Assembly: GCA_903858595.1 (NCBI GenBank)
Contig: CAIOJL010000004.1
Location: forward strand, 1-57,369
Source: an uncultured Spartobacteria bacterium
GTDB lineage: Bacteria; Verrucomicrobiota; Verrucomicrobiia; Chthoniobacterales; UBA6821
Length of the DNA: 57,369 bases
Direction of reading: 5' to 3'
Positions 24,214 through 54,705 of the stretch are shown in pieces. Position 1 is the stretch's first letter, and the number at the start of each line of letters is the position of its first letter. A program made the position numbers and the translations under genes. The notes beneath the pieces were generated by a model. That model saw only the letters and a program-made list of their open reading frames with translations. It was not told where the DNA came from and did no database searches.

Positions 24214-27200
24214 CTAAAGTGAGGCCTGCACTGGTGCAGGGGAGATATCGGCGGCCTTGCGATGTTCGTCGTCATCGTCGGAACCGCCATCCCCTCCCCC
24301 GTAGCCCATGATATCAATCGAGAAAACCGAGGGAGTGGCATCATCTTGATTGCCCGAATTGCTCTTATCAGCTGTCTTGTCAGCCGCGCTATTAGCTGCC
24401 GCCGCAGCGGCACTAGCTCCAGCTGGGGCCGAAACAGGAGGTGCTGCCGGTGGAGGGGCCGCGGCTGGGGCTGCAGCTGGAGGAGCTCCCACGATGGCAC
24501 CGGATGCCGCGATATTATCGGCGTTCAGGATCTTAGTGGCCGCCAGATTCAGAGTTCCCGAGGAGCGGATACCCGCATCACCCGCATCAATGACGCCCGA
24601 TGGCGCAACGAGATCGACAGTCCCCACGGCGGCATCTTTGACTGTTGCGAGGACACCGATGCCGCCACCGGTTGCGAGACCGGAGAGATCCGTTTCCACA
24701 TTGCCGCTGGTGGGATTCACCAGCACGCGGGTCGGAGGTGCTGTGGCCACCGTCTTCGCGGAGGATCCTGCGGCGATGTTCCCCTTGTCTGACCACATCA
24801 TGATATCTCCACCGCGAAGTGTGAAGATACGGCCGATTCCTATGGAGACATCGTTGCGGGTGTAGACATCGATCGCGCCGCCATGCTGGGTGACGATACC
24901 CGGAGGAGTCAGCGTGCTGAGGGTCGGTGGGACAATCGAGGCCAGGGAGACCCCTCCTTCCGGGGCAATCATGAAAATCGAGCCTCCATTCTGGGTACGG
25001 ATACTTTGAGTCCTGAGATTGATGTCTCCGGCTCGGGGGGTGGATCCGAACATCTCGGCGATGGCATTCTCTCCAGCTGAGTAGGTTCCGTAGCCGGGAC
25101 TTCCGACCTTATTGTGATCCCTTCCCGCATCACGAAGAACAAGAGAGAACAAGACCAGAGAGAGGCGCGCCTTCTGATCATCCGTGATTAAGGATGACAA
25201 AATCCCGGAGAGAGATCCGGCCGAGGCAAGAGCGGTGGCCAGATCATCATCCCCTCCCTGCAGGACCTGTTTCGATAGTTCCTTATAGTAGTTGGATGCT
25301 TCGGGAAGCGTCTGCACCTTTTGAATCAACCCAGTGAAATTAAGGGAGGAGGCTGCATCGAGGGAGGAAGGGAGATTGACACCAGCCATTGTGATGATGT
25401 CAGCTCCGTTGAAACTCAGGGCCGGATTGCGGGCATTTCCGATACTCGTGATGCCGACGCCCGTTCCATCGGCATTATTGGGGCCGTTGCCGAGATCGAT
25501 CCCGCCACCGGAGACCACCTCCAGGGTTCCGGGGCCGCTAATCTGGATATCCCCGCTACCGGTAATTCTCGCCTTGTATTGGCTGAGTTGCTGGTCGCTG
25601 AATCCAGTCCCCGCGGCTTGGGCAACCCTTTGGTAGAGGGTTTGATCATTATAGGCAATGATCCCGGAGACCGCAGAAATAACGCTGACATCCGAAGGGG
25701 AGAGATTCTGGAGATAAAGTCCCACATCCTCGATAAATCCCCCCGAAGAGATCTGCGCGCGTTTGGGTGAGAAGAGAGTGATGCCGGTGAGATCCCCCGA
25801 TCGGGCCACGATCTGCAGAGGGTTTGGATCGTTTTTGTGAAGGAGACCGGCATCGTGGAGCTGCTGCTGGAATTGCAGACTGGCCGCATCCCCCGAATAG
25901 GATCCCGTCTCCTGGAAGGGAAGGCCGTTGAATGAGGAGACGGGGGCCGACGGCGAAGGCATGCTGGAGGGACTCGCATCGGAGAGGTTGATCGTCGAGG
26001 AGATGTAGAGTCCCGAAGTGCCGATCGAAGGGGAGCCCGCTCCGTCTGTGGAGAGTCCGATCACACTGCCTGCGGCATCGAGAACAATATTGCCTGAAGG
26101 CGACGTCGCCGCGGTATAGCTGCCCTGCAGGAGGATATCCCCACCGAAGCAAACCGCCTGCAGAGAGGCCGGTTGGAGGGCCGTCTGAGAGACCAACGCG
26201 TTGACGCTTCCCGTGTTCAATCGCAGCCACGGCTGATAGAAGGACGACTTGTAATTATCGCTGGGGAGGATCGGACTGACATCCCCCTGATACCAGTTCA
26301 GCAGGATCGGAGAGACCGGATATCCTGCATTGGCGGCATACTGCCGGAGAGTCACGGAACCGCCGAGAGAAGCCACCGAGACTGAGGAAGAAGCGTCGAG
26401 GGTCGAGAAAAAAGAGTTGTAGTTAAGTCCGTTGTTGAGTCCCTCGGGCATCAGGAAGACGTTCGCCGCCGGCCCAAGAAGGACATTCCCAGAGGCGGCA
26501 ACGTCAAACGAGCTCTTGCCGAGGAACAGGGTGGTTGGCAGGGCTGCCCGATCCGTGCTTATTGGGGCACCCGCAATGGCGGCCAGCGAGGGAGTCATGA
26601 AGGTGTCGCGCGAGGGGTTGGTGATAATGGAACCACCCGCCCGGAGACGTCCCTGCCCCCTCTCCACATAATAGACACCGGCATCGAGGTTCTTGCCGGC
26701 ACGGATTGTCATGTCACCTCCTCCTGTTTCCACCAATGTTTGGGATGAGGGGGAAACCGGAACGGAGACTGTCGATCCTTGCGTCACCACATAGTCCGCA
26801 ACGGAGAGATTGTTCGCGGCAGCGAGATCAGCAGGGATCACACCGAATGCATCGGCCACGGTTTGGAGCGTGTCGCCGGAAGCCACCGTGTAGCTATCAC
26901 CGTTGCCGTCGGGAATGCTCAATGTGGCCCCCTCGGAAGGTCTTATCATTCCGATCGTGATCCCGTTCATCGAAGCAAGGGTTGAAAGCGGCACTCCTGA
27001 TTGGCTTGCAACGACTCCCAACGAAGAGTCATTACCAAGGGAGAGGGTTGTTTTTCCAGCCATGCGGGCCTGGGTCGGGATCACGGAGTCGACATTGCAG
27101 ATGATGCCGCCGGCCTTCATCGTGATATTCCCGCCTCCAAGAGCACCGACACCCTCGAAAAAATTGCTGAAATCGACCCACCAGGCGGTGGAGGTGATTT

Positions 27201-30200
27201 CGGTACGGGTGGTGGTCAGGGGCGTGACCCCGTCCGTGTCCAGCAGCATGTTGCCATTGGCATCCAGCTGATACGTCGTGTTTGCCACCGCGACGAATTT
27301 TCCGGTGATCGGATCGACGGCCCCCCTCCGGTAGAGCCAATTGGAGGGAAGTTCCCTCACGGAATCATCGACAACGACGGGGTTTCCGTCTCCATGGGTG
27401 ACGACCGCTCCTGTGGAATCTTTCTGGTAGGTCTTGTGGGCGATATTGCCGCCGACCTCAATGGAGATATTGCCGCCAGCCATCGAGAACTGCGCCTGAT
27501 AGGTCTGATAAATAGGGAGCGGGTTCCCATTGGCATCCATCAGGGGAGACCCGTTGACATCAGAGAGAGGAACGGGATTTCCATCAGCGTCGACCTTGAT
27601 CTGCTGGGCAGCACCGAGGCTGGTAGTTTCGATTCCGTTCATACTTGCAGCGGGCGTGTCAAAGGTTCCTCCCAGATTCTGATCCGGGACAAGGGTGCCG
27701 GCCGTGTAGACCGAGGAAAATTGGTTCCAGAGTTGAAAATCCCCCGAGGCATTGATGGCAATGTCACCGGTTCCGGTGCGGATCACCTGATAGAGTCCCC
27801 TGATCACCTGAGGGGTCAGCGCGTTTGCCCCATTCCCCGGATCATAACCCAGACCGGGGAGACCGAGCGTGACATTGGCAGCGGATCCTGTCGAAACGGC
27901 GCTGGTGTTGGCGGAGGACAGGTCAGTCCCGGCGGTGATGGCATACGACCAGCTTTGGAAGTTCGCGGGCAGCGCCGTGTTATGGCTCAGCAATGTGGCG
28001 GTGTAGTCGCTTGATGAGAATCCGTCGCTCAGACTGGCATTAAGGGCAATGTTTCCGGAGGCTCTCAGGGTCAGGAAGCCGGGCGCACTGTTGGCACCCG
28101 TACGGAACTGCGACAAATCCCAATCCTGCGAGAGCGTGAGATCACCTCCTTGATTAATGATTTCAACACCCGGGGCAAGATTCAGAACAGCTGCGACTGA
28201 GGGATCAAGGTCTCCTGTCAGTCTCGTGAGAATTGTGGCTGCCACGTCTGAGTTCGCACCCGGAGTTCCTAAAAATCCTTGGGCATCCGAGACCACTAGA
28301 GGAATGACAGAGGAAATCTCTGCAGATCCTCCGCCGTCCGGAGTCAGATCATAGAGTTTATAAGCCTCTACCGCGACACTCGAGGCCCCTGTGATCGTAG
28401 AGGAAATCTCGGAAATCTGAACATCGGAGCCATTGGCCAGTTGGGGAGCTCTCAGGTGCAGGGTGCCGCCAAACTGATCGATTCTCTCAGGAAGCGCTTT
28501 CACACCGAGATCCAGTGTGGATCCCGTTCGGAGATCAAGGAGAGCGTCGGGATTGATCACCCCGTTAACCGCCGCACCAGCACTCAGGAAGATCGATCCC
28601 CCCTTGCCCGCGGCATCGTAGGTGTCGCCATGGACGGAGAGAGAGCTTCCATCTTCCAGAATTACGCTTCCCGAAGCCTGCAGGGCGATAGCCCCGCCCG
28701 TCTTTCCGGAGGCATTGATTGATCCCGTGACATCAATAGATCCACCGTCTGCCGTCACCGTGAAGGAATGGGACTTCACGGCGGCATCGACCGCCACATC
28801 CCCAGAGCGAATCCTGAATGATTGGGAGGAGCTGAATCCAGCCGTTGCCAGCACCGGTTCGATGATCGACAAGGAAGAAAGCGATCCGACATCCAGGGTA
28901 AATGATCCTCCGATACCACCCGAGTTCCCTCCCTTGGCATTGATCAGGGCTTCTGAATCCACGGAGAAGGCACCACCGGGCGCACTGACCGAGAGGCTTC
29001 CTGCGGAGGAGGATTTGATGGCCGAAAGAACCAGTGCCGAACCGGCACCGAGAATCACATTGCCGGAACTCGAAACCAGAGTAATCGATCCTGCATCGGA
29101 AGAACGCACGTCACTCAGGAATGTTCCCTGCTTCCCGGAAACTCCGGCAACGGAGAGTCGGGCATTGTCGTTATTCCCGACGGTAAGATCGCCCGAAAGG
29201 GCGGTGGCAGTCAGCGATCCCCCTGGCAGGAGGATCGACGAATCGAGGGAGACCGATGAACCCAGGAGACTGAGTGCTCCTCCAGCCTGTAAGTCCGGAA
29301 CCGAACCGGAAGCGGCTCCGGATGAAGGGGAGACCAAAGAGAACGCACCGGCGGTGCTGAGCACCGTGGAAACTCCTCCCAAGGTCGTGACCAAAGGAGT
29401 GCTGATTTTCAGGTCGCTCGGCAGGCTTCCCGTACCGGCGGAGAAAGTACCTGAAGCGGTGCCGATCACCGAGGAGGATGCCTCCAGGGAAACAGCAGAG
29501 AACTGATCCCATGACATGCCATTTATACCCAGTGAGAGCTTGTCTGCGGAGATCCGGAGCGTCCCATCGGCCGCCGCCGTGACCGCACCCGGACCGGATG
29601 CCTGAACGGACGGATGATCGGAGCCAAGCGGATTCACCATCACGGCGGGGTTATCAAGCAGGATCGATCGGGCCGAGAGGAGAGCCTCATCCCCCGAATG
29701 ATCAAAGCCGCGGATCTCCCCGGCGTGAAGGGTCAGACTCCTCAAGGAGGTAGAACCGACGACTCCAGCCCCATAGAGATCAAGCGAACTATAGCTGGTG
29801 AATGAAAGGGATGTCGCCGAACTGAAACCATTCAACTGAGCGCTGGAGAGAACAAGGGCGTTGGCGGAGGAGGCATCCAGGTCCGCCGCCGTAAGAGTCG
29901 GAGAGGAAAGAAGAGCGATTTGTCCAGCCGTCAGTAAGAGTGAAGCAGCGCTCAGCGTGGTCGTCGGGGAAACCGTTGCGAGGGCACTGGAATCAAGAAT
30001 CACACCCTTGCCCGACAGGAGCGATCCATCCGCAAGGCTCAGGGAGGGAGCGCCGGGATTGCCATTGCCATCGGTGAAGCCTAACTGGGTCGCCAGAGAA
30101 TCGACACCGGCACGCCGAGAGGTGACCGCGCTGTCCGAACTCACACGGAGAAGAAGACCATCCCCTGCAAGGGTGAGCGATTCATCAGGAGCAGCGGATG

Positions 30201-33200
30201 TACCCGCGGCCGTAAGCGAGGCCCCTGATCCCAGAGAGATAAGCGTACCGCCCACGAGGATAATGTCGTTGCCCACAAGTTTCGTGCCATCCTGGATCGT
30301 GACGGAGGGACTGCTGACAGTGATAGGAGTGGTGCCATCGGACTGCACGGCACCGCGGCTTCCTCCGAGAAGAAGACTTCCGAAAGACCACCCCGAAAGC
30401 TGTTTCGCCCCAAGAAGAAGGGCTCCACTCGGATCTCCCGATCCGTCCGCATTGACCACGATCGCCAGAGGTGAGCTGACATCGATCCGCGCCCCCACAC
30501 CCTTCCCTAAACCTGAACCGCTGACGGAACCGGCCAAAGCCATCCCTGCCGAGGCGACAAAGTGGACACTCCCCCCGTCCGCCGGTTTCGGCGAGGCCAC
30601 ACTGGAATTGAAGAAGGTGTCCACCTGCAGAAATCTCTCCTCGTTTTTCCCCGCGAGAACGTAGGGTGAGGAGAGTATGAAGCTGCTTGCCAGCGATGAA
30701 AGTCCCGATGCTCCGTCCATGCCGTTGAAAACGATTCCCGAAAGTAGGATAGATCCGTCGGGATGGGGGACGGGAGATCCCGTAGCACCAGTGCCGGAGG
30801 CGCTGATGAGATAGGCGCCGGGGAGAGTTGCATAGGATACGGGAAGCAGGGTGTAGTCGCCTGCGGCAAGCCCCCCTGCCCCGGGCAGCCTTACCTTCTG
30901 ACCGAATGGGATGGATCCGTCCGAGTAACCGGTCGGTGCATAATCAGCGGTATATCCGGGAACAATCGCGTAACTGTTCGGCAACTTGGTCCAGTAAGGA
31001 CCGATCACCGGAGTGATTCCCGAGGAGGCCTGAACGGCTGACCAGAGACTCCCCCCATAGAGGACCAGATCCCCGGTACGGTAGCTATTCTGAGATGCAT
31101 AGGAAGTTCCGCTTCCCGTCCAGTTGATCGTTCCGCCAAGGCCATAGACCCACTGGGGAGCCTCCAGCGTCCCTCCACCGCTAACATCGACCGAAGAACC
31201 CTTTTCCATGGTGAGTTGAGAAGCCGAGAGGTTGACCGATTTTCCGGGAACTCCCCTGTAGGTGATGTCGAAGCCCGAGGGGTCCAGCCATTTCTGCCCG
31301 TCGGCAGAGGTTCCGTAAGGGAGAGCCATTCCATTGCCCGAGACGGAGATAAGACTCCCAGCCTGAAGCGTGAGGGTGGTGGTGGAGGGGAGACTCAGAT
31401 TGGAGAGAAAGTCCTTAGAACCACCGGTACCACCCAGCGTGATGGAACCCATCGGCGCGAAGAGCGATCCTCCGATGGTGAGGGTGTCGGCATAGAGCCC
31501 GAGGGAAGCTCCCGCGGAGAGGGGCGCTTCGGGCATGCCGGAGCGGATCAGGGTGATATGCCCCAGAGTGCCTCCCGAGGAGAGAGCCTCGCCGGTCGAA
31601 GGATCATAGCCGTAGGCGACCGCCTTGAACGAGGTGCTTCCGGCAGGATAGATCTCCGCGGCTGTCAGCGTAAGATCCCCGGTGACATCCAGGGTTCCAT
31701 CACCACGAATCGCCCCGCCGGGTGCCGAGAGACTCGTGCGGCGGATTCCCTGCAAGGAGAGATTTCCCAGATCGATAAGCCGCGCGTTCTCAACCGTGAG
31801 GCTTCCCGGGACATTGGCTCCATCGGCACCGGCTGATGGAGCACCCAGAAGGGTTTGATCGGAAGTGCCTGGAGGATTGGGCGTGCCGAATTTCTGCCCC
31901 AGGATGACATGGGCGGCCGAAAGAGTGACCGCATTGTCGGCACTCAGAGTTCCTGCCGTGGCAGCCGTTATGGTTCCAGGAACCGAGAGGGAGACGGGCC
32001 CGGAGAAGAAGGTTCCTCCGCTCAACTTCACCGAATCAAAACCTCCTCTGCGGAACGTGGCGAGGGAGACCTCTCCACCGCCATTCAGACTGGGCGCGGC
32101 GATGGCATCGGGAAGAGTCAGCTCGACACCCACTTGGGAGCCCGGGATGGAGGGATCAACGGCAGGAGGAAGAACGCTCCCCGACTGCACGATCATCAGG
32201 GTTAACGGGTTTTCCGCGGAACCGGAGGAGAAGGATACTGTCCCTCCCGCTGCCGTCGTACCGCCGCTGCGCCCCATCAACGTCGCATCGGAGTAGAGTG
32301 CTTTTTTACCAGAGAGAGTGATGGAGCCCCCGGCGCTGTCGATCCGTGAGGAGACGAATCCACTCTGATTCAATCCCAACTGAGCGGGCAGGAAATCGAG
32401 TAAACCCGAGGTGCCGGAGACATCAAGAAGCCCACCCTCTGCGAGAATATTTCCCCCGAGAGAAATACTTCCACCTGGAAGCACTGCACCGAAGCGCGAC
32501 CTCGCGCCCAGAGGATCAACGGTTGTCAGCACGATGCCAGCCGTCGACAAAACAGCCGACGGGGCGAGATCGAGCGTTGCCTGCGGATAGTTGGGAGGCT
32601 GATCATTGGAGGGAAAATCACCGGCAGCCGCTACCTTGATTCCTCCAGCCGGCGCAAAGATTGATCCATCGATCGTCACCGTGTTGCCGAAGAGAGAGAC
32701 AGATCCGCCCACCCCGGAACCAGAGGCCGTCAACTGGGGATCGACGATGATCGAGGCTCCTGAGCCGAGCACCAGATCACCTCTGGCCAGCACCTTGGAA
32801 CCCAAGAGAAGATTATCGTCCACTGTACCGGCCGAGGAGAAGGAGAGTTGTGCCGCGGGCCGCAGGGGGGATGGCAACAAGAAGGGAACAAGTGAAGAGC
32901 GGGATTGATTCAGAATCTGGGAAGCAATCACCGGATGAATCAAGGTTCCCTGATCGATCACCAAGCCCGGACGATAGGCATCATCCCCGGGAAGACCGAC
33001 TCCGGTTCCTGCAAGGGTGAATGAGGAAAATCCTCCCGTGTTGAAGAATGAGGGAAGGATCTCCGTCTCGCCGGTCAGCGCCGTACCCCCGACGCGGATA
33101 GCCGTGGCGGCCAGCGATAGCGATCCCCCACTGATCCCGGGTCCGGAGTATCCCCTTAGAGTCGATCCCAACCGGAGCGTGCCGTCATGGATGTCGGCGA

Positions 33201-36200
33201 GCACCGTCTGGGGTCGATTGCCCCCCGAGGCCTGCGGATCGGCACCTGCCTTGATCGAGATGGTGCCTGCCTGACCGTAGGTCAGCTTGGCAGAGGCAGT
33301 CACCAAGGCCCCTCCCGAGACATCCACCAGCGCACCTTGCTTCAGAAAAGAGTCATGCCCCGCTAACATGATCGAGCCTCCTCCTATCATGATCGGAGCC
33401 AGGGTCGAGGAACCGAGATCGCTGGTGAGAAGGCCCGCCGTGCTGAGGAGAGCACTTGACTCAACACGCAGATTCCCGGAGGTCAACTCGGGAAATCCAA
33501 GGATCGGTGGGGCGCCGGGATTGACGGCCAGAGGAATCAGATCGTAGGGGACGAGGTCGGCCATCAGTGAGATCGATCCTCCGGGAGCCGTGATGCTTCC
33601 TCCGACCTCCACATTGGCCGCCTCCATCGTGACACTGCCGCCCAGCCCTGCATCCAGCTTCACCCCGCGGGGAATCGAAATCGACCCGTCGTGGTTGAGG
33701 ATGTTCACCTTGCCAAATCCTGAATCGGAAAAAAGTCCCTCCGACAGGGTGATCTGTCCCTTGACGGCATCGGGCAACGGTGCGGCATTTCCCGATTCGT
33801 CCAGTGCAAAAGATTGTAGGGCCGTGGAGGCTGAGGCTTTGGCGAAAAGAACTGATGGGGCATATGGTGAGGTGGGCAAAACTAGGGAGGAGTTCACCTT
33901 CACACCCTCAAGACTCAGATTGAACGATGATGGGGCCGGTGGAGCCCCCGATGTTGCCGTGGCTCGGAGTTGACGGAATCCGGTCACCGTGTTGCCAGCA
34001 ATCCCCCCTTTCAGAGCCACCGAGGGAGCCGCAATGGAAAGGGATCCCCCCGATGCTCCCTGGAGAGAAGGAGCCTCATACGAGGAGGGAGCATTCTTCA
34101 GGATTCCGGTGTAGACTTGATCAGGAGTCGCCTTTGAAATATCAACAGCCCGCCCATCGCTCGTCAGCAGCTTTGTGGTGGCGAAACTCCCCCCCGAGTA
34201 CTGAGTCCATCCACCCGAGACATTGACGATCGACCCGGGACTCATCACCACGGCGTCACCAGCCGAGAGGGAGACCGAACCACCCGCCTCGGTGAGCTGA
34301 CCCACCCTCTTCTGGATAAGCCCCACGTAGCCGCCAGCCTTGCCGAGCGGGGTTCCGACCCAGTAAGTGCCGTTGTAGGATCCCGTGTTCCGGATATCGA
34401 TCGTGATGTCCTTGCCACGAACGGGACTGTTTCTTTGCAGGGGACTGTCGGCAAGCTCCGGCCCGCGGAGCTGGAGGGTCAGGAAATTCTGCGCCGAGTC
34501 GACCTGCACATCGGTCGATCCGGAGGCATCGATGACGGCCCCTTGATCCAGATAGATCTGTCCAGCCGTCGGAAGAAGCATTGAGGGGGAATTTCCATTC
34601 GGGAACCACTCCCCCGCAGAAAGAGTGATGCCATTGACCAAGGAAGATCCACTTTCGGAGAGCGCAAGGGGCTTGCCATTGGCATCGAGGGATTCCACGG
34701 CACCGGGTGCCAGAAGAACAGACCCATTCCCCAAATGGATGTTCCTGCCGATGATGTCGACGAGTGAATTGAGGGCTAAGGAGTTACCGATCACCGTGTC
34801 ATCGCTTCCCCACTCGGGAAGAATCCGAAGGACGCTTCTAGAGCCCAGCTCCACAAGGCCCGTCGATCCCTGATAATAGGCGGGGCCGTTCAGCCCATCG
34901 GTCGTGTAGGCGGAATTGATCATGGTTCCGTAACTGGCGACTAGGTCGACCCGGCCGTTGAGGGAGACCGAGGTGGAGCTGTCGAGAACGGCCCCTATGG
35001 AGCGCCCTCCGTTGACAGGGCTCAGGGAATCATCAGGCAACGATCCCTGGATAACGGACTTGCCGGCCATCGTGGCATTGCCCCGGTCAAAGGAGATAAG
35101 ACCGTCGTTAACGGCATTCCCGGCGTCCCCGGCCAAGGGAACCACCGCCCCGGCCTGAACCAAGGGATCCGGATCATCCAGTCTGGCGTCGCGCACCGCA
35201 CCGACCACGACATCCATGCCGCGGAGGCTCGGATCCTTCGAGGCATGGGGATTGAGCGCTACCTGAAGCCCCGCCGCCAGAACGGTCTGTCCCCCGGCGG
35301 TGCTGATGGTGCCATCATTGCGGACATTGGGGCCGACAAGGGCAACAAGACCACCCACACCGGCGGAATTCGGAGGGGAAACAATCGATGCTCCCGTCTC
35401 CACCACCACGTCACCCGGAGTGGCGCTCTGCGGAACCGATCCAAGGGAGGGATCAAAGGAGGGCGTGGGGCCATTCTTTCCGGAGGAGAGCTTCAGCCCG
35501 CTGAAGAGGAACTGGTTGTCCGGATTGTTCGCGATGCCGCGTCCAGTCACCCCGTCTAGGGCGTCCCCCGCCAGGTTTCTATTGATCGGTAGGGTGGAGG
35601 CGACCAGCGTGTGGGTATTCACGGTCGAGCCATTGTGAAAGAGAAGACCATTCTGGTTGAGAATCCAGACCTGCCCTTGCGCGGTGATATTGCCAAAGAT
35701 GTGGGAAGGATCCGTGGCGCTCATCACCTTGTTGAAGGCGATCCAGTTGCCGGGATCACCGTTGTTTCCCTTCTGGCTGAAATTTATCGTGGTTGCAGGA
35801 CCGACATTGAACTTATTCCAGTAGAGATACGCATTCTGCGAGGTCTGCTGGATATTGACGTAGTTGGGATTCGCCGCATTGGCGGCGTTCTGGGATGGAG
35901 TGATCGAGGCCCCGCTCCAGGAAGTGGTCACGGCCGTCCCGTTGACGATTCCGGCACGCTCACCCTTCACGTAGGGCTCGAGCCAACCGGCCTTCAGCCC
36001 GTTATAGACCGCCGTGTCGCCATTCACCGTCTGGCCGTTCGGAAGCACGGATGCCGGATTGGCCTTCGCGGCTTTAGCCGCCTGAGCCTGCAGCTTCGTC
36101 ATTGCAGAAACCACGGCATTCCCCTTGGCGATATCTTGCCGAGCGAGAGCCGCGGTCAGCGCGGCGGAGGCAGCACCGGCGTTGACAAGATTGGGTGCAG

Positions 36201-36495
36201 AACCCTGCCCCCCGGAGCCGCTTGTCGAACCCGCCTTGATCTGGCCCATCGTGATGGCAAGGAGCGGAGGGGACGAGGTCAGGAAGAGCAATGCCGTAAG
36301 CACCGACGCCACAGCCCTGACAGGCCAAGAATGACGGACCACACGGACCCCAAGGAGTTCGGGCAACGGATCAACGGACCCCTGCGGTACAAGCGCATGA
36401 TTTCCGCCTTCCCCACCGTAAAGGTGCGTCCTTTCCTCCCCGACTCCATAAAGGAAACGAAGCACTCGGTGCGTCATCGGGGAAAAGGCGGACAT
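24214..36495 (-). CDS. Giant FHA-like (two-partner-secretion TpsA type) exoprotein, 4093 aa
   Basis: N-terminal haemagglutination-activity type region (AYLYWNKFNVGPATTINFSQ...DPSHIFGNITAQGQVWILNQNGLLFHNGSTVNTHTLVAST), long beta-helix-like Gly/Ser-rich repeats, C-terminal DUF3739-like segment (ITGSGDIQISGPGTLEVVSGGGIDLGNG), Ala/Pro-rich tail. Confidence 0.9.
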   Translation of the reverse strand: MSAFSPMTHRVLRFLYGVGEERTHLYGGEGGNHALVPQGSVDPLPELLGVRVVRHSWPVRAVASVLTALLFLTSSPPLLAITMGQIKAGSTSGSGGQGSAPNLVNAGAASAALTAALARQDIAKGNAVVSAMTKLQAQAAKAAKANPASVLPNGQTVNGDTAVYNGLKAGWLEPYVKGERAGIVNGTAVTTSWSGASITPSQNAANAANPNYVNIQQTSQNAYLYWNKFNVGPATTINFSQKGNNGDPGNWIAFNKVMSATDPSHIFGNITAQGQVWILNQNGLLFHNGSTVNTHTLVASTLPINRNLAGDALDGVTGRGIANNPDNQFLFSGLKLSSGKNGPTPSFDPSLGSVPQSATPGDVVVETGASIVSPPNSAGVGGLVALVGPNVRNDGTISTAGGQTVLAAGLQVALNPHASKDPSLRGMDVVVGAVRDARLDDPDPLVQAGAVVPLAGDAGNAVNDGLISFDRGNATMAGKSVIQGSLPDDSLSPVNGGRSIGAVLDSSTSVSLNGRVDLVASYGTMINSAYTTDGLNGPAYYQGSTGLVELGSRSVLRILPEWGSDDTVIGNSLALNSLVDIIGRNIHLGNGSVLLAPGAVESLDANGKPLALSESGSSLVNGITLSAGEWFPNGNSPSMLLPTAGQIYLDQGAVIDASGSTDVQVDSAQNFLTLQLRGPELADSPLQRNSPVRGKDITIDIRNTGSYNGTYWVGTPLGKAGGYVGLIQKRVGQLTEAGGSVSLSAGDAVVMSPGSIVNVSGGWTQYSGGSFATTKLLTSDGRAVDISKATPDQVYTGILKNAPSSYEAPSLQGASGGSLSIAAPSVALKGGIAGNTVTGFRQLRATATSGAPPAPSSFNLSLEGVKVNSSLVLPTSPYAPSVLFAKASASTALQSFALDESGNAAPLPDAVKGQITLSEGLFSDSGFGKVNILNHDGSISIPRGVKLDAGLGGSVTMEAANVEVGGSITAPGGSISLMADLVPYDLIPLAVNPGAPPILGFPELTSGNLRVESSALLSTAGLLTSDLGSSTLAPIMIGGGSIMLAGHDSFLKQGALVDVSGGALVTASAKLTYGQAGTISIKAGADPQASGGNRPQTVLADIHDGTLRLGSTLRGYSGPGISGGSLSLAATAIRVGGTALTGETEILPSFFNTGGFSSFTLAGTGVGLPGDDAYRPGLVIDQGTLIHPVIASQILNQSRSSLVPFLLPSPLRPAAQLSFSSAGTVDDNLLLGSKVLARGDLVLGSGASIIVDPQLTASGSGVGGSVSLFGNTVTIDGSIFAPAGGIKVAAAGDFPSNDQPPNYPQATLDLAPSAVLSTAGIVLTTVDPLGARSRFGAVLPGGSISLGGNILAEGGLLDVSGTSGLLDFLPAQLGLNQSGFVSSRIDSAGGSITLSGKKALYSDATLMGRSGGTTAAGGTVSFSSGSAENPLTLMIVQSGSVLPPAVDPSIPGSQVGVELTLPDAIAAPSLNGGGEVSLATFRRGGFDSVKLSGGTFFSGPVSLSVPGTITAATAGTLSADNAVTLSAAHVILGQKFGTPNPPGTSDQTLLGAPSAGADGANVPGSLTVENARLIDLGNLSLQGIRRTSLSAPGGAIRGDGTLDVTGDLTLTAAEIYPAGSTSFKAVAYGYDPSTGEALSSGGTLGHITLIRSGMPEAPLSAGASLGLYADTLTIGGSLFAPMGSITLGGTGGSKDFLSNLSLPSTTTLTLQAGSLISVSGNGMALPYGTSADGQKWLDPSGFDITYRGVPGKSVNLSASQLTMEKGSSVDVSGGGTLEAPQWVYGLGGTINWTGSGTSYASQNSYRTGDLVLYGGSLWSAVQASSGITPVIGPYWTKLPNSYAIVPGYTADYAPTGYSDGSIPFGQKVRLPGAGGLAAGDYTLLPVSYATLPGAYLISASGTGATGSPVPHPDGSILLSGIVFNGMDGASGLSSLASSFILSSPYVLAGKNEERFLQVDTFFNSSVASPKPADGGSVHFVASAGMALAGSVSGSGLGKGVGARIDVSSPLAIVVNADGSGDPSGALLLGAKQLSGWSFGSLLLGGSRGAVQSDGTTPITVSSPSVTIQDGTKLVGNDIILVGGTLISLGSGASLTAAGTSAAPDESLTLAGDGLLLRVSSDSAVTSRRAGVDSLATQLGFTDGNGNPGAPSLSLADGSLLSGKGVILDSSALATVSPTTTLSAASLLLTAGQIALLSSPTLTAADLDASSANALVLSSAQLNGFSSATSLSFTSYSSLDLYGAGVVGSTSLRSLTLHAGEIRGFDHSGDEALLSARSILLDNPAVMVNPLGSDHPSVQASGPGAVTAAADGTLRISADKLSLGINGMSWDQFSAVSLEASSSVIGTASGTFSAGTGSLPSDLKISTPLVTTLGGVSTVLSTAGAFSLVSPSSGAASGSVPDLQAGGALSLLGSSVSLDSSILLPGGSLTATALSGDLTVGNNDNARLSVAGVSGKQGTFLSDVRSSDAGSITLVSSSGNVILGAGSALVLSAIKSSSAGSLSVSAPGGAFSVDSEALINAKGGNSGGIGGSFTLDVGSLSSLSIIEPVLATAGFSSSQSFRIRSGDVAVDAAVKSHSFTVTADGGSIDVTGSINASGKTGGAIALQASGSVILEDGSSLSVHGDTYDAAGKGGSIFLSAGAAVNGVINPDALLDLRTGSTLDLGVKALPERIDQFGGTLHLRAPQLANGSDVQISEISSTITGASSVAVEAYKLYDLTPDGGGSAEISSVIPLVVSDAQGFLGTPGANSDVAATILTRLTGDLDPSVAAVLNLAPGVEIINQGGDLTLSQDWDLSQFRTGANSAPGFLTLRASGNIALNASLSDGFSSSDYTATLLSHNTALPANFQSWSYAITAGTDLSSANTSAVSTGSAANVTLGLPGLGYDPGNGANALTPQVIRGLYQVIRTGTGDIAINASGDFQLWNQFSSVYTAGTLVPDQNLGGTFDTPAASMNGIETTSLGAAQQIKVDADGNPVPLSDVNGSPLMDANGNPLPIYQTYQAQFSMAGGNISIEVGGNIAHKTYQKDSTGAVVTHGDGNPVVVDDSVRELPSNWLYRRGAVDPITGKFVAVANTTYQLDANGNMLLDTDGVTPLTTTRTEITSTAWWVDFSNFFEGVGALGGGNITMKAGGIICNVDSVIPTQARMAGKTTLSLGNDSSLGVVASQSGVPLSTLASMNGITIGMIRPSEGATLSIPDGNGDSYTVASGDTLQTVADAFGVIPADLAAANNLSVADYVVTQGSTVSVPVSPSSQTLVETGGGDMTIRAGKNLDAGVYYVERGQGRLRAGGSIITNPSRDTFMTPSLAAIAGAPISTDRAALPTTLFLGKSSFDVAASGNVLLGPAANVFLMPEGLNNGLNYNSFFSTLDASSSVSVASLGGSVTLRQYAANAGYPVSPILLNWYQGDVSPILPSDNYKSSFYQPWLRLNTGSVNALVSQTALQPASLQAVCFGGDILLQGSYTAATSPSGNIVLDAAGSVIGLSTDGAGSPSIGTSGLYISSTINLSDASPSSMPSPSAPVSSFNGLPFQETGSYSGDAASLQFQQQLHDAGLLHKNDPNPLQIVARSGDLTGITLFSPKRAQISSGGFIEDVGLYLQNLSPSDVSVISAVSGIIAYNDQTLYQRVAQAAGTGFSDQQLSQYKARITGSGDIQISGPGTLEVVSGGGIDLGNGPNNADGTGVGITSIGNARNPALSFNGADIITMAGVNLPSSLDAASSLNFTGLIQKVQTLPEASNYYKELSKQVLQGGDDDLATALASAGSLSGILSSLITDDQKARLSLVLFSLVLRDAGRDHNKVGSPGYGTYSAGENAIAEMFGSTPRAGDINLRTQSIRTQNGGSIFMIAPEGGVSLASIVPPTLSTLTPPGIVTQHGGAIDVYTRNDVSIGIGRIFTLRGGDIMMWSDKGNIAAGSSAKTVATAPPTRVLVNPTSGNVETDLSGLATGGGIGVLATVKDAAVGTVDLVAPSGVIDAGDAGIRSSGTLNLAATKILNADNIAASGAIVGAPPAAAPAAAPPPAAPPVSAPAGASAAAAAANSAADKTADKSNSGNQDDATPSVFSIDIMGYGGGDGGSDDDDEHRKAADISPAPVQASL

Positions 36496-36597
36496 CAGGA
36501 TTCTACACTAAAGCACAACGAGTCGATTCCTGCGTTACGTTTTTGACACAATAGGTAAAATTCTCCCTCCCCTCCGCAACGTTATGAGGGGGGATCT

Positions 36598-37557
36598 CTA
36601 CTGAGCAAGGGGAGGATAGGCGGCCTTGATGGCGGCCGCCTCCTTGTCACCATGGCTGATCTGATCGGGCGTCATCAGGGCCGTGATCTCATAGTACATG
36701 CCGATAACCGGGACGTAGCCGGCATCCTTGGCAAGCTTGATCCAGGGGTAGCTTGCGGACGGCCCCTTGAGCACCATCATCTTGTGGGCATAGAGGAACT
36801 GGGCGGGGGAATTGCCCAGTCTAGCTGCTGTTGCAAGCCACTCATCCGACTTAGCCGGATCCTTGGGGAACCCCGTGCCGTTCTTGTAGAGATCGCTGAG
36901 TCGCAGGGCGGCCCCGTCGTGACCGGCCTGGGCGGCGCGCAGGAGAAGCTCTGCGGCCCGCTTGGGATCCTTCGTCATGCCGTTTTCCCCGGAGAGAGAG
37001 TCATCGGCCACGGAGACCAGAGCCGGTACATAGCCCAGATCAGCGGAACGTTGCATCATCTTCGAGGCTAAGCTCGGGTCCTTCGCCGTCCCGACCCCCT
37101 GACGGAGGAGCAGGGAGCAGGAAAAGAGGGCCTTGGGATCCCCGGCATCCGCACCAGAGCGGATCCAGCGGTATCCCTCGGCGGGATCGGCCGGCACACC
37201 CGCCCCCGCGAGTAGCATCACCCCGAGATTCTGCATGGCCCGGGGATCTCCGGCACGAGCCGCACGGAAGTAGAGTTCCCGAGCCTTCACAGGATCCGGT
37301 GTGTCTCCGATTCCCTGCTGAAGATTGACCGCCTTGTGGAAGAGCCGTGCGGCCTCCTTCCTGGTCAACTTCTCAGGAGAAGGCTCGGGAGTGGGCGTGG
37401 GCGAAGGAAGGATTGCAGGGGGCTGCTCGGCATGACTTCTTGCGACCGGAAGAGCCAGGGAGAGAAGAAGGGCCCCGGTGAGGCCGCGCAGCGGATGTGA
37501 TGATGCGGATAGCAGATTCATGATCGTGGTAAAAGGAGATGAATGGGTGTGGATCAT
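36598..37557 (-). CDS. Secreted Sel1-like repeat (TPR-like) protein
   Basis: Signal peptide MNLLSASSHPLRGLTGALLLSLALPVARSHA and repeats such as GDPRAMQNLGVMLLAGAGVPADPAEGYRWIRSGADAGDPKALFSCSLLLRQGVGTAKDPSLA. Confidence 0.88.
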   Translation of the reverse strand: MIHTHSSPFTTIMNLLSASSHPLRGLTGALLLSLALPVARSHAEQPPAILPSPTPTPEPSPEKLTRKEAARLFHKAVNLQQGIGDTPDPVKARELYFRAARAGDPRAMQNLGVMLLAGAGVPADPAEGYRWIRSGADAGDPKALFSCSLLLRQGVGTAKDPSLASKMMQRSADLGYVPALVSVADDSLSGENGMTKDPKRAAELLLRAAQAGHDGAALRLSDLYKNGTGFPKDPAKSDEWLATAARLGNSPAQFLYAHKMMVLKGPSASYPWIKLAKDAGYVPVIGMYYEITALMTPDQISHGDKEAAAIKAAYPPLAQ

Positions 37558-37629
37558 AGCAGATTCTTGGACAGATGGGAGAAGGGAATGTTCGGTGACA
37601 ATTTCGTAACAATCATGACCTCTCTTACT

Positions 37630-38391
37630 TTATTGTCTGACACGGATCAGACGCCCCTCGCGCTGCAAGACCCGCATCTCCAGCGCATCCTCACCGTAGC
37701 GTGCTCGGAAGGCATCATCAGCCGGACTGAGCGGCGTCGGCTCGGGTGTTGGCGCGGGAGGAGGGCCCTTGAGAGACTGGAGGGCCTCATCTCCATACTG
37801 CTGGCGGAAGATATCATCGGCCTGTTGGGCCGACTGCTTCCAGAGATCGGCATAGCCGGGTGCGTAGGGACTCAGGCCGCTGGACTGGATACGTGCAGTA
37901 AAATCCGCGGTGGTCTGATCGAGAAGCTGGAGCTGCTCCTCGGTGAGTGAGGAACGGGCTTCAGGCTGGGCATAGATGGCAGGGACATAGACTGGGACAG
38001 GCGTCGGTTCGGGTTCCACCACCTCAAAGACCTCTTCCGGTTGCTTGGGCTCTTCCCGGACGACAGTCGTTGCGGGTGAGACAGGGGATGCAGGAGAGGA
38101 GGAAGTTGTCAGAGTTAACGCGGATTGGGTCGAAGGAGTGGGGGGCACCGCTGTCGCTTGGGAACCCTGCGGAGTGGCAGTCCTGGAGGAGCTGCTTCCC
38201 CCATCCAAGGCCAAGGTCGATCCGACAGAGCTCCAGGAGCAAAAGAGCAGGAACGTAACCAAGAGCACGCCACCCCCCAGGGCGATTAGTAGAAATGGGT
38301 GGATGAATGCCGAAGCGTCTAAGCGACGCCTAAACGTGGGAGCATGAGCAGGAGCATAGTAATGTGGCTTGCGGTGAGTCATCACGGGCAA
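37630..38391 (-). CDS. Hypothetical membrane-anchored protein with Ser/Thr/Pro-rich linker
   Basis: One TM segment FLLIALGGGVLLVTFLLFCSW, then low-complexity linker and charged C-terminal domain. Confidence 0.7.
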   Translation of the reverse strand: MPVMTHRKPHYYAPAHAPTFRRRLDASAFIHPFLLIALGGGVLLVTFLLFCSWSSVGSTLALDGGSSSSRTATPQGSQATAVPPTPSTQSALTLTTSSSPASPVSPATTVVREEPKQPEEVFEVVEPEPTPVPVYVPAIYAQPEARSSLTEEQLQLLDQTTADFTARIQSSGLSPYAPGYADLWKQSAQQADDIFRQQYGDEALQSLKGPPPAPTPEPTPLSPADDAFRARYGEDALEMRVLQREGRLIRVRQ

Positions 38392-38454
38392 CTGGGCATG
38401 AAGGGTTGTTTATTTGTCGAGTAAGAACTCTTTCACTATTTGCCTGAGAAAACA

Positions 38455-38484
38455 AACAGGCCGACGGTTTCCCGCCGGCCTGTT
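38455..38484 (-). terminator. Rho-independent terminator downstream of the 38559-40214 gene
   Basis: Inverted repeat aacaggccgacgg-tttc-ccgccggcctgtt (one mismatch); T-rich (TTTGTTTTC) on the minus strand after the stem. Confidence 0.8.
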
Positions 38485-38558
38485 GTTAAGTTTTCTTTCC
38501 ACTCCCTCCCGGAGTTGCACTCCAGAAGGTTTCGGCAAGAAGGGAGAGAGGATCTCTC

Positions 38559-40214
38559 TTAGAAGCCAGCTCCGGCGCCGGCAGTTGCCTGCTTGGCGGT
38601 GGTGGAGTAGCTGGGCAGGTTGGTCAGCGTCACGCTGTTGGTCCAGTTCTTCGTGATGCTACCACCGTCAACCGTGCGGGCGACATTGTTGGTAACGTCG
38701 CTGAGCAGGAGAGTCCCCTTGGCCTTGGCCTGAAGGGCAGGTGTACTGAGAGACTGGATCGAAGTGGCAATCTGCGAAGCTAACGACTGAGCGGTCGCAG
38801 AGGCCTCATTGTTCACCAGGATGTGCTCGACGCTCCAGAAGGGATAGGCTCCCGACTTGATCGCTCCGGTACTCGGATAGACACCCTCGTAGGAGAGGAT
38901 GTTGGCACTCTTGCCAGTGGCATCGGCGAGACCGGCGTAGCCGATCGCGATGGCATTGCCGGGAGAGTTTGCCGAGGTGACTGCAGCAATCGTGGTGCAG
39001 AGATCACCACCCGATCCGTATCCATTGTGTCCGGTGGCGCAGAGCTTGCCCAAGGTGACCTCGGCGGGCCAGTTCGTGATCACCAGAGTGCTGGCGCTGT
39101 TGGAGGCATAGAGCGTTCCATCCGACTGGGTGTAGGTGGAGTACTTAATACCGCTGTTGGTGCCGAGGATCAGGTACTGCTTGATGCCGGTGTTGACACC
39201 GTTGGCAACCGAGGTGCTGGTAACTGTGCTGCCAAGACCAAGCATCGAGAAGGTGATCAGACGAGTGCCGGAATCAATGCTGCGACCGACAGCATAGACG
39301 AAGCGGTTCGTGTCATCAAGGCTGCCAGTGAACTGGGCGGCATTGACCTTGCCGAGCTTGAAGAGGGCGGCGGCCTGAGCCTTGGTGATGTTGGCGATGG
39401 CGCCGTTGGTGCCGGCGAAGTTCGCGCCTTGGGTCAAGGCCGAATTTGCGCTGGAAACGAATCCAAATCCGACAATGCCGACAGGGATGTCGTTCGTGAT
39501 CGCGGAATACAGGTTGGAAGCCACAAGTACCGAACGGCTGGCCGGAGCCTTAATGCCCAGGTACGTGGCATTGGTCGTCTGTGCGGGATCGAGGTTGTTC
39601 GTAGCAAAGACAGCAACCGTCTTGCCGGCACCGAAGGCCGAGGAGACCTGATAGGTGTCGGAGAAGGCGATGGTGCCAACAGCGGCCACCTTGCTGATCG
39701 TGCCGGTAGCAACGCCATTGGAGAGCGTGAAGCTCTGAGAAGGATCCCAGAAGCTAATCAGGTTCGGAGTGGCTGCGATGGCGTCGGTAATGCTGTTGGT
39801 GGTCTTCAGCGTGTTGGTCCATTTGCCAGCAACACCCGTCCAGGTTCCACCGACAACCAGATTCGTGGGCTTCACCGAGTTGGTGTAGGTGGTGATATTG
39901 GTGCTGACGACGTTGTAAGGGCTCTTGTAGCTCACGTTCTGGGGACCGGCGACGGTCTGGATGCCAGCCTCGGAACCATTCCAGCAAGCAACAACCTTAT
40001 CGCCATCCACGGTCGTCCAGACCACGTTGCCGGCACTGCCGAGTGTCGCATTGTCCCTGGCGTTCTGGGTTCCACCAGCGGTCGTGATGGTGGAATCAAT
40101 CTGGCTGTTCGCAGCGCTACGGAAAGCCGTAGAACCGGTGATATAGATCGTCTCGGCGGAGGCCGAACCGATCGCAAGAGCTGCAAGAGCAGCTGCTAGG
40201 ATGTTTTTTTTCAT
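38559..40214 (-). CDS. Secreted protein, PstS/periplasmic-binding-protein-like
   Basis: Signal peptide MKKNILAAALAALAIGSASA then ETIYITGSTAFRSAANSQID; VGRSIDSGTRLITF; GNAIAIGYAGLADA...GAYPFWSVEHILVN resemble the PstS-like layout; assignment is weak. Confidence 0.55.
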   Translation of the reverse strand: MKKNILAAALAALAIGSASAETIYITGSTAFRSAANSQIDSTITTAGGTQNARDNATLGSAGNVVWTTVDGDKVVACWNGSEAGIQTVAGPQNVSYKSPYNVVSTNITTYTNSVKPTNLVVGGTWTGVAGKWTNTLKTTNSITDAIAATPNLISFWDPSQSFTLSNGVATGTISKVAAVGTIAFSDTYQVSSAFGAGKTVAVFATNNLDPAQTTNATYLGIKAPASRSVLVASNLYSAITNDIPVGIVGFGFVSSANSALTQGANFAGTNGAIANITKAQAAALFKLGKVNAAQFTGSLDDTNRFVYAVGRSIDSGTRLITFSMLGLGSTVTSTSVANGVNTGIKQYLILGTNSGIKYSTYTQSDGTLYASNSASTLVITNWPAEVTLGKLCATGHNGYGSGGDLCTTIAAVTSANSPGNAIAIGYAGLADATGKSANILSYEGVYPSTGAIKSGAYPFWSVEHILVNNEASATAQSLASQIATSIQSLSTPALQAKAKGTLLLSDVTNNVARTVDGGSITKNWTNSVTLTNLPSYSTTAKQATAGAGAGF

Positions 40215-40781
40215 GTTGTTTTGTTTTTGTTTTTGGACTGACAGTTTTGTCTGACTAACGACTGGCTGACTGACGGCGCCGGAAGATCTGAGGGCTTTTT
40301 AGTGTTGGTTGGGCTCTCGTTTCGTCCGGGTTGATTGTTTGCTGCGCGGTGAAGCTGGCTGATTCGGTGTCGTGTTTTTGTTTGCCGCTGTTGCTATTTC
40401 GGGACTTGGCAGGCTGCGGATACCGATGAAATCAGGGTTTTTGGGTTGATGGTGAAAGTTTTTTGTTTCTGAACTGCCGTGAATATGCCCGAGACCCCGC
40501 GGATCGTCATGAGCTTTAATGTCACAAGTTTGTAACATTGCCTTGGTTGCCATGACCTACTACTCCCAGTCATTTTCCCCCGCCTCCGCAATGAGCGATT
40601 CCCAGCCCATGAACCAATGCCAAAGGACCGCCCGGAGAGAACATCGTGCGGGAATATCTCTCAATGCGTTCTCTTGCCACCCCTTAAAAAAACCGTTACT
40701 TCTTACTCTCGTTCTGATACTTACAATATATTCGGATATGGCTTCGGTGGTCATGCCATCCCCCACAGAACAACATCAACC

Positions 40782-42635
40782 ATGTTGAATCCCTCCGATC
40801 ACCCCCAGTCCGAAGGAGTCGAACGCCGGTCGCGCCAAGAAGCGGTTAATGAGATTCTTCCACCCGAGGGAGATGCAGTGGCCGGCATGCCGGAGCATGG
40901 ACGGGAGCGGGAACTCTCCACTCCGAATGAGGCGACCCAATCCCTCGCCTCTCGCGAGCTAGAGGAACTAGAGGAACTAGAGGAACTAGAGGAGCTAGAG
41001 GAGCTAGAGGCCGGGTCCGGGGAGGAATCTCTCCCACTCCAGACAACTGTCAGCGACTCGAGCCACACGACCCGTATGAACACTGGGATTATCGGCAAGA
41101 TTAGAATTGCTTGGCAGGAGAGTAGATTTTCTCATCAGCAGAGGATCCGCAGGTTCACGCTGCTGGGCGTCCGTATCACCAGTATCTCCCCGGAAGAAGC
41201 TGCGAAAAAGTGCTGCTCGGGAGGCCTGATCCTGGCGCCGTCGGGCCCCGGGCTTTGTAATGTCGCCTATGATCCCAACTATTGCCGGGCCCTGCAGGAG
41301 AGCGACATCAATCTCGCCGACAGTATCCTGGCCATAATGATCATGCTGTTTCTCGGTATCGGACGCCTTCGACGGACAAGTGGCCTGGGCTTCCTGAGGG
41401 CACTTCTCAAGCGGAACGAAATCAAACAGCTAGAATCCAGCTACTGGGTCATGCCAAGCACCGATTCCATGACAAAAAACCTGGCCTACCTGAACTCCAT
41501 GGGGATCCCGGTCCATGAGAACAACTGTTATGTGGCACCGATGTATCCTGCTTATGGCGAAGTAAGGGACTTCCGACTCCTGGCCGAGCTGAAACAACAC
41601 AAGCCTAGGTTCATCATGATCTGCACAGGGAGCGGATCGCAGGAAAAGCTCGGCGCCTGGCTGAATCGCCGACTGGACTATCACCCTACGATCTGCTGCA
41701 TCGGGGCGGCGATCGCCTTCGAGAGCGGGGACCAGATTCACATCCCGCGCTGGGCGGACGCTCTGGGATTAGGGTGGTTGTTCCGCTGCTTCTCCAACCC
41801 CAAGGTATTCGTCCCGCGTTACTTCAAGTCCCTGGAGCTGATCTATCTCTCCATCTGCCACCGCCGGGGAGCCCCTCTTCATGCCGCGCAACTCTTGATC
41901 AAGAACAACGCGCTCAATTACATCTCCTACTTCCTGATCATCCAGGGGATCGCGGTCTTCGGATCCTTAATCCTTTGGCACGATTTCCTGGAGTTTGTGT
42001 GTCATACGGATATGCTGGCCCATCGGCATTGGTTCATTGGTTCGGCGATTCTGCTGCTGAGCACCATCATCACCCGAATTGTGCGGATGCAAGGGAACGA
42101 TTACATCAGCATAAACAACACCCAAAACCTGCGCTCGGGATTTGTAGACTGGTTACTCACCTCCGCCATCTGCCTTGTGGCGCTGGTCATGACGAGGGAT
42201 CTGACGATTTCCAGGACCTTCATCATCACCTATCTGCCCATCCTTCTCCTAGTGATGGTGTCCTGCAATCTGCTGCTGCCGACTATCCTAACAAAGTATT
42301 TTTTTAGAAAAACCCTCACAACCAATACGGTGATCATTCCCCTTGCCATTCAAACCAAGAAAAACAAGACAATGATCGCAAAAATGCACTCTAACTGGGC
42401 GGCCCGCAACAGCTACTACTGCATGGAAATCTCGGGGCGGATTGGGGAGGAATCCTCGCCAGGGCTTGAGAAGATCCGTTATCTCGGGCCCGTAGAGGAA
42501 TTCCCGTCGATCTGCAATTCGCATGGCATACGACATGCCATGATTCTCATGCCGAACTCCCAAAAATCGAAAATCGAGAAACTTATCCAGGAATGCGAAC
42601 ACCTGAAGATCCACCTTTCGCTCATTCATGTCTGA
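40782..42635 (+). CDS. WecG/TagA/CpsF-family glycosyltransferase fused to membrane + CoA-binding-like N-terminal half of a polyprenyl glycosylphosphotransferase
   Basis: GT26-like region LGVRITSISPEEA...GPGLCNVAYDPNYCRALQESDINLADS...FIMICTGSGSQEKLGAWLNRRLDYHPTICCIGAAIAFESG; then several TM segments and LGPVEEFPSICNSHGIRHAMILMP. The track ORF starts at 40617; true start uncertain. Confidence 0.7.
   Translation: MLNPSDHPQSEGVERRSRQEAVNEILPPEGDAVAGMPEHGRERELSTPNEATQSLASRELEELEELEELEELEELEAGSGEESLPLQTTVSDSSHTTRMNTGIIGKIRIAWQESRFSHQQRIRRFTLLGVRITSISPEEAAKKCCSGGLILAPSGPGLCNVAYDPNYCRALQESDINLADSILAIMIMLFLGIGRLRRTSGLGFLRALLKRNEIKQLESSYWVMPSTDSMTKNLAYLNSMGIPVHENNCYVAPMYPAYGEVRDFRLLAELKQHKPRFIMICTGSGSQEKLGAWLNRRLDYHPTICCIGAAIAFESGDQIHIPRWADALGLGWLFRCFSNPKVFVPRYFKSLELIYLSICHRRGAPLHAAQLLIKNNALNYISYFLIIQGIAVFGSLILWHDFLEFVCHTDMLAHRHWFIGSAILLLSTIITRIVRMQGNDYISINNTQNLRSGFVDWLLTSAICLVALVMTRDLTISRTFIITYLPILLLVMVSCNLLLPTILTKYFFRKTLTTNTVIIPLAIQTKKNKTMIAKMHSNWAARNSYYCMEISGRIGEESSPGLEKIRYLGPVEEFPSICNSHGIRHAMILMPNSQKSKIEKLIQECEHLKIHLSLIHV
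40956..41009 (+). repeat. 6 x 9-bp in-frame tandem repeat (gaRctagag) encoding (ELE)6
   Basis: Directly read: gagctagag gaactagag gaactagag gaactagag gagctagag gagctagag. Confidence 0.97.
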
Positions 42636-53687: not shown

Positions 53688-54530
53688 TTACTTTCCCATC
53701 AGGTTCGCAATGATCGTGATGATGGTCTCCCTCATTCGAGAACGAGGCACGATCTCATCGATCAGGCCATGCTCAAGCAAGAACTCGGCGGTCTGGAATC
53801 CCTCGGGTAATTCCTGATGGGTGGTCTCGCGGATCACGCGTGGACCGGCGAAGCCGATCATGGCCCTCGGTTCCGCCAGGGCGATATCACCGAGCGTGGC
53901 GAAGCTGGCCATGACGCCGGCCGTTGTCGGATTCGTCAGGACGGCGATGTAGGGAAGACCCGCCTCGCTGTGGCGGGCTAGGGCGCCGCTGGTCTTGGCC
54001 ATCTGCATGAGGGAGAGCATCCCCTCGTACATACGGGCACCTCCCGAGGCACAGACGATGATCACGGGACGCTTGGCCTTCGTGGAGGCCTCGATGATGC
54101 GGGTGATCTTCTCACCGACTACCGAGCCCATGGTGGCAGCCAGGAAGGAGAAATCCATAACGGCCAATCCGACGGGATGACCTCCCATCACCCCAGAACC
54201 GGTAATCACGGCATCGACGAGTCCGGTCTTCTCCCGATAAGTCTTGAGTCGATCCTCGTAGGTGGCGACTCCTCTGAATCCGAGCGGATCCACCGATGAC
54301 ATCGCGGCATCCGTCTCCTCGAAGGTCCCCTCGTCAACCAGTGTGGAGATCCGCTCTTGCCCCCCCATGGCGAAGTGATGGCCGCATTTGGGGCAGACAC
54401 GCAGATTTTCCTCAACCGCGAGATGATGGACCATCTCGGAACATCCGGGGCACTTTGTCCAGAGACCTTCGGGCATTTCGCGCCGCTTTTTCCCCGAAAA
54501 CTTAAGCGACGGCTTTTTGAACATGGTCAT
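53688..54530 (-). CDS. accD: Acetyl-CoA carboxylase carboxyltransferase beta subunit
   Basis: LWTKCPGCSEMVHHLAVEENLRVCPKCGHHF zinc motif; VCASGGARMYEGMLSLMQMAKTSGAL. Confidence 0.95.
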   Translation of the reverse strand: MTMFKKPSLKFSGKKRREMPEGLWTKCPGCSEMVHHLAVEENLRVCPKCGHHFAMGGQERISTLVDEGTFEETDAAMSSVDPLGFRGVATYEDRLKTYREKTGLVDAVITGSGVMGGHPVGLAVMDFSFLAATMGSVVGEKITRIIEASTKAKRPVIIVCASGGARMYEGMLSLMQMAKTSGALARHSEAGLPYIAVLTNPTTAGVMASFATLGDIALAEPRAMIGFAGPRVIRETTHQELPEGFQTAEFLLEHGLIDEIVPRSRMRETIITIIANLMGK

Positions 54531-54705
54531 GGGTTACAATTCTGCAACAAATCTGCCGTGGATGGAAAGCCTGATGGGGGGAATCGGTTCTAGGAGATAG
54601 GTTATAGGGGGAGAATGGAAAGGCGTGGGGCGTGGAAAGAAGAGATCCGTGCCAAATCCAGTTTACCCCATCACCTATGTCCTATTGCCCATTGCTCATT
54701 GCCGA

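Follow-up and report, generated by a model that had tools for sequence, protein, structure and literature searches.

Which regulator, if any, reads the three similar intergenic sites that lie within about 4 kb beside FHA-like, Sel1 and PstS-like genes in this uncultured Spartobacteria bacterium? We addressed this in the window, by which we mean the entire 57,369-nucleotide stretch of DNA analyzed, in the rest of the genome and in related genomes. An exact pattern search confirmed the coordinates of all three from an earlier note on this DNA: site 1 (GTGTCAAAAACGTAAC) at 36534–36549 on the minus strand, and sites 2 (GTGACAATTTCGTAAC) and 3 (GTCACAAGTTTGTAAC) at 37595–37610 and 40521–40536, respectively, both on the plus strand as the pattern reads. 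Nowhere else in the genome (2.35 Mb in 242 contigs) does the pattern match exactly; the reversed-pattern control gives one match there, and none of 100 shuffled windows contained the exact pattern. A looser form allowing two mismatches shows no enrichment across the genome (438 matches versus 681 for the reversed control); hence, the regulon is not findable from the pattern alone.

As the pattern had been fitted post hoc, we tested it independently with a position weight matrix (PWM) and a sequence-only covariance model (R1), built from 27 sites that come purely from other genomes, with none from this one. The training of R1 took in part of the sites of the relatives and excluded the PitA, Na/Pi, OlsB-like, LpxH-like and other-family sites described below; its E-values are rough. 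In the window, the three sites fill PWM ranks 1, 2 and 3 (31.6, 23.6 and 21.7 bits), and in the whole genome R1 places site 3 at rank 1 and site 2 at rank 2. Site 1 is weaker than these (12.6 bits, rough E-value 0.41), appearing among the 10 R1 hits of the genome, and the case for it leans on conservation more than on score. R1 yields 8–16 hits per genome versus 0 for its reversed version, which returned none in 10 genomes, an empty answer that alone is little proof. The observation made in the note is thus confirmed. The next PWM score in the window, 20.4 bits, followed by 12.0 bits, belongs to a candidate at 54528–54551, immediately 5' of the start codon of a gene labeled accD-like by eye from its sequence. 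We judged it to be a false positive, probably arising by chance, because its right half-site is lost in two relatives (G012 and G002) despite 94–95% identity of the gene.

The 27 training sites align without gaps to the consensus TGTKAC-N5-TGTNAC, i.e., two 11-bp direct repeat units. The Pho box likewise consists of two 11-nt direct repeats, with a sequence that differs between species (PMC4415409). The direct repeat geometry of the PhoB/OmpR type that had been proposed is hence borne out and can be narrowed to PhoB: from the sequence comparisons, we consider it very likely that the three sites are PhoB-bound Pho boxes, linking the FHA-like, Sel1 and PstS-like genes to the phosphate-starvation response. 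As such, they add new examples to a known type of element. The inconsistent orientation that had counted against them is only apparent, being a consequence of the near-palindromic nature of the TGTNACA half-sites; read towards their genes, all lie on the minus strand, as TGTTACAAACTTGTGACA for box 3 (PstS-like gene, 40521–40536), TGTTACGAAATTGTCACC for box 2 (Sel1 gene, 37595–37610) and TGTGTCAAAAACGTAACG for box 1 (FHA-like gene, 36534–36549).

The promoter arrangement around these boxes is conserved. Site 3 had been placed in the divergent region between the PstS-like and WecG-like genes; the conserved promoter points to the former, and a role for the latter is not supported. The WecG-like gene itself shows a short tandem repeat at 40960–41015 of the window that encodes a Leu-Glu-Glu run. 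The predicted PstS-like promoter (40482–40510, minus strand) has the −35 hexamer ATGACG (40505–40510), a 17-bp spacer and the −10 hexamer CATATT (40482–40487), with equal spacing and near-identical hexamers in the aligned relatives. In many of these, the promoter reads towards the gene as GATTGTGACGAACTTGTGACATTAAAGGTCATGACG-N17-CATAGT, comprising the direct repeat, an AAAG element, the −35 and the −10, and its counterpart in the window is CAATGTTACAAACTTGTGACATTAAAGCTCATGACG-N17-CATATT. For the Sel1 gene, the sequence offers a candidate −10, TATGAT, at 37553–37558 (minus strand), which overlaps the annotated start (37557); the true start is therefore probably the next in-frame ATG at 37521. 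At the FHA-like genes of the relatives the position of the box is kept, with sites such as ATGTCGGAATTGTAACA, a −10-like hexamer 22–23 bp on and the start codon about 10 nt later. Going by this spacing, the candidate −10 of the FHA-like gene in the window falls within 36500–36510 (minus strand), as either TAGTGT (36505–36510) or TAGAAT (36500–36505). Given that the annotated start (36495) comes just 4 nt after the likely −10, the true start is probably the next in-frame ATG at 36477.

Across same-genus genomes, PstS-like, FHA-like and Sel1 genes likewise have the box on their 5' side, and the −35 and −10 elements downstream of it are conserved. Homologs of the PstS-like protein were recovered from 16 of the 38 genomes searched, this one included; among named genomes, a search with the protein gave no match. 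The loci around the homologs bear the same motif; the relatives also carry diverged paralogs of the protein, and in several of them a PEP-CTERM gene sits between the box and the PstS-like gene. The motif is therefore kept upstream of orthologs, which supports the proposal of a co-regulated locus of presumed surface proteins.

The PstS-like exported protein (38559–40214, minus strand; 551 aa) displays a PstS fold. It matches the PstS profile with an E-value of 3.9e-10, and a Foldseek search with its predicted structure (mean pLDDT 72.8; the inserted segments are unreliable) gave a best E-value of 4.1e-8 and a TM-score by target of 0.78, all 17 matches at E ≤ 0.001 being phosphate-binding proteins. 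While it resembles the PstS phosphate-binding proteins (PDB 4lat, 4exl and 4ecf) in fold and profile, it differs from them in its length, its low-confidence insertions, a score below the NCBIfam PstS cut-off (30.4 versus 206.6 bits) and a gene that is not beside pstCAB, the canonical pst operon being on another contig. The Sel1-repeat exported protein (36598–37557, minus strand; PF08238) has 319 aa as annotated. The FHA-like TpsA exoprotein (24214–36495, minus strand) is a giant of 4093 aa with an N-terminal TPS secretion domain (PF05860, 57.5 bits; cut-off, 33.5), LysM and a C-terminal DUF3739; a comparison with PHROGs gave no match. Between the PstS-like and Sel1 genes lies a gene for a proline-rich protein (37630–38391, minus strand), which has no box of its own within the window; in the relatives, its homologs are again neighbors of PstS-like or Sel1 genes.

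We then examined the genes that share the box elsewhere. The canonical pstS-pstCA operon is preceded by the same box arrangement in this genome, in G001, G006, G010, G011 and G015, and in a member of another family (G029); in G002, G003 and G012 the pst box is degenerate or was not found. Besides the window genes, the R1 hits in this genome lie before a TpsB gene of the ShlB/FhaC type and before genes for two transporters (PHO4/PitA and a Na/Pi cotransporter) and two enzymes, an OlsB-like N-acyltransferase and an LpxH-like metallophosphoesterase, the last of these genes being divergent from a NusG-like one. Of the other two hits, one is found in front of the gene for a short exported protein and one between Nramp and methyltransferase genes. 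A box-like site flanked by genes for an Nramp-type transporter and a methyltransferase is conserved between this genome (L156, G000:C56:1565) and a relative (L178, G004:C4:8251). The box before PitA also occurs in G002, G005, G012 and G015; in G014 and G015, LpxH-like genes have it as well. Among the order's other families, the best R1 hits are found 5' of canonical pstS in G022, G027, G033 and G037; G025 has a hit between phoU and pstB, and G027 has further hits 5' of PstS-like and LpxH-like genes. Thus, the genome scan that had been suggested as a check placed high-scoring sites 5' of genes, including pst, pit and Na/Pi transporter genes, and not with equal frequency inside coding regions.

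The TpsB gene is present as a single copy in this genome, on contig C222, unlinked to the FHA-like gene and with its own box. Of 16 TpsB genes examined in the genus, 11, from 11 genomes that include G002, have a box. TpsB is probably the partner of the FHA-like protein, a pairing that we infer, and the shared box would thus tie TpsA to its presumed TpsB.

The regulator shows a matching distribution. A PhoB-type protein is present in 14 of 14 genomes tested; that of this genome finds its best library family in TIGR02154 (PhoB) at 231 bits, under the curated cut-off of 296, and its gene adjoins one for a PAS/HisKA kinase. Boxes accompany a single OmpR/PhoB-type protein in G004, G014 and G015, and likewise in G022 and G027 of other families. 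The six genomes of a sister genus (G016–G021) keep pstC; none of the six codes for an OmpR/PhoB-type protein, and none has an R1 box hit at E ≤ 0.5, an apparent loss of the whole switch. The regulator and the boxes are hence co-present and co-absent across the genomes tested, and given this co-absence together with the set of phosphate genes, PhoB is the best candidate by a wide margin. In most genomes, a clear box is missing from the canonical phoB gene itself. G007 (L100, C22), G011 (L099, C42) and G010 (L167, C145) each encode an additional OmpR/PhoB-type regulator whose own gene has a box on its 5' side; these are possibly secondary regulators under PhoB, or self-controlled. A second Trans_reg_C protein in this genome (L165:2617-3262, G000:C119) has an incomplete receiver reading frame, reflecting a frameshift, an assembly error or decay.

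These extra regulators raise the question of whether the boxes bind another response regulator of the OmpR family, such as a PhoB paralog dedicated to the surface locus. The box upstream of the additional regulator in three genomes and the second Trans_reg_C protein here would fit such a paralog; against it, strong boxes occur at PstS-like and at FHA or TpsB genes of G004, G014 and G015, genomes with only a single such regulator, the receiver frame of the second protein here is incomplete, and pst and pit genes have boxes as well. We therefore regard a dedicated paralog as improbable. Some copies do look palindromic, e.g., TTGTGACGAAATTGTCACAATT at a TpsB gene, which would suit CRP/FNR-type palindromes (TGTGA...TCACA) reporting on carbon or oxygen state. 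The arms of a CRP palindrome are spaced by 6 bp. In the copies here, the TGTGA–TCACA spacing is 8 and not 6 bp, most copies are not palindromic, the targets are phosphate genes and the sites are missing where PhoB-type regulators are missing. Both the spacing and the target genes led us to reject this very unlikely reading.

As for mere chance resemblance among three intergenic sites picked by eye, the post hoc nature of the pattern and the lack of enrichment of its two-mismatch form speak in its favor. However, an independent matrix puts these very sites on top, they are conserved across species together with promoter elements, and the other hits are functionally coherent; chance, which the results for sites 2 and 3 already contradict, is barely credible as an explanation.

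Under PhoB control, scarcity of phosphate would cause the kinase to phosphorylate PhoB, a dimer of which would bind each box and recruit RNA polymerase. The box would act from just 5' of the −35 at the PstS-like and pst promoters and, at the FHA promoter, from closer to the −35 position. Within the window, the predicted output is the switching on, rather than repression, of the exported PstS-like protein, the Sel1-repeat exported protein and the giant FHA-like TpsA exoprotein. Elsewhere, the same regulator would activate the pst operon, PitA and the Na/Pi cotransporter, the TpsB pore presumed to partner the FHA-like protein, the OlsB-like ornithine-lipid enzyme and the LpxH-like phosphoesterase.

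This predicted system resembles the PhoB/PhoR Pho regulon of E. coli and other bacteria (PMC4415409) in having two 11-nt direct repeats 5' of pst and other phosphate-gene promoters and a regulator of the OmpR/PhoB type that matches PhoB best among NCBIfam families. It differs in its half-site (TGTKAC/TGTNAC rather than CTGTCAT), in the −35 element that follows the box at the pst and PstS-like promoters, in a PhoB-like protein that scores below the curated cut-off and in the inclusion of several surface proteins of the lineage. A comparable case for the last of these is the two-partner secretion system PdtA/PdtB of Pseudomonas aeruginosa, whose expression depends on PhoB, low phosphate and the sigma factor VreI (PMC7035377). 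There too PhoB is linked to a TpsB and its large TpsA exoprotein, a link predicted here from the boxes; however, the Pseudomonas genes are clustered, whereas TpsA and TpsB are unlinked here and have a box apiece. An analysis of Verrucomicrobia MAGs from fresh water reported phoRB and pst genes (PMC5615132), and among open-licence papers we found none defining a PhoB motif or Pho box in Verrucomicrobiota. The present model thus offers a usable Pho box for a group of uncultivated lake bacteria, from which the phosphate-starvation regulon can be read, and the sister genus, which keeps pst but lacks a PhoB-type regulator and any detectable box, provides a natural knock-out.

By its NrdB sequence, this genome falls among Spartobacteria/Chthoniobacterales MAGs (Verrucomicrobiota; 99% to JAPJNA01). 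The isolate names of these MAGs suggest a freshwater origin, and the prediction is that these lake bacteria would meet phosphate scarcity by altering their surface. It is conceivable, albeit speculative and rather doubtful, that the phosphate-starved cells build a phosphate-scavenging surface from a giant two-partner-secreted fiber and diverged PstS-like binders without linkage to an ABC transporter. In relatives, PstS-like binders are encoded beside PEP-CTERM proteins. If such a surface exists, two-partner secretion would serve phosphate capture and not adhesion alone.

The 5' ends of the predicted transcripts have features of their own. At the FHA-like genes, both in the window (36495–36510) and in the relatives, the start codon follows the likely −10 by only about 10 nt, so that their mRNAs may have next to no leader. 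In the 5' leader of the PstS-like gene, a stretch at about 40410–40440 (approximately CAAACCCTGATTTCATAAGCCTCC) is conserved in the aligned relatives, where its spacing from the promoter stays constant, and is possibly a leader RNA element.
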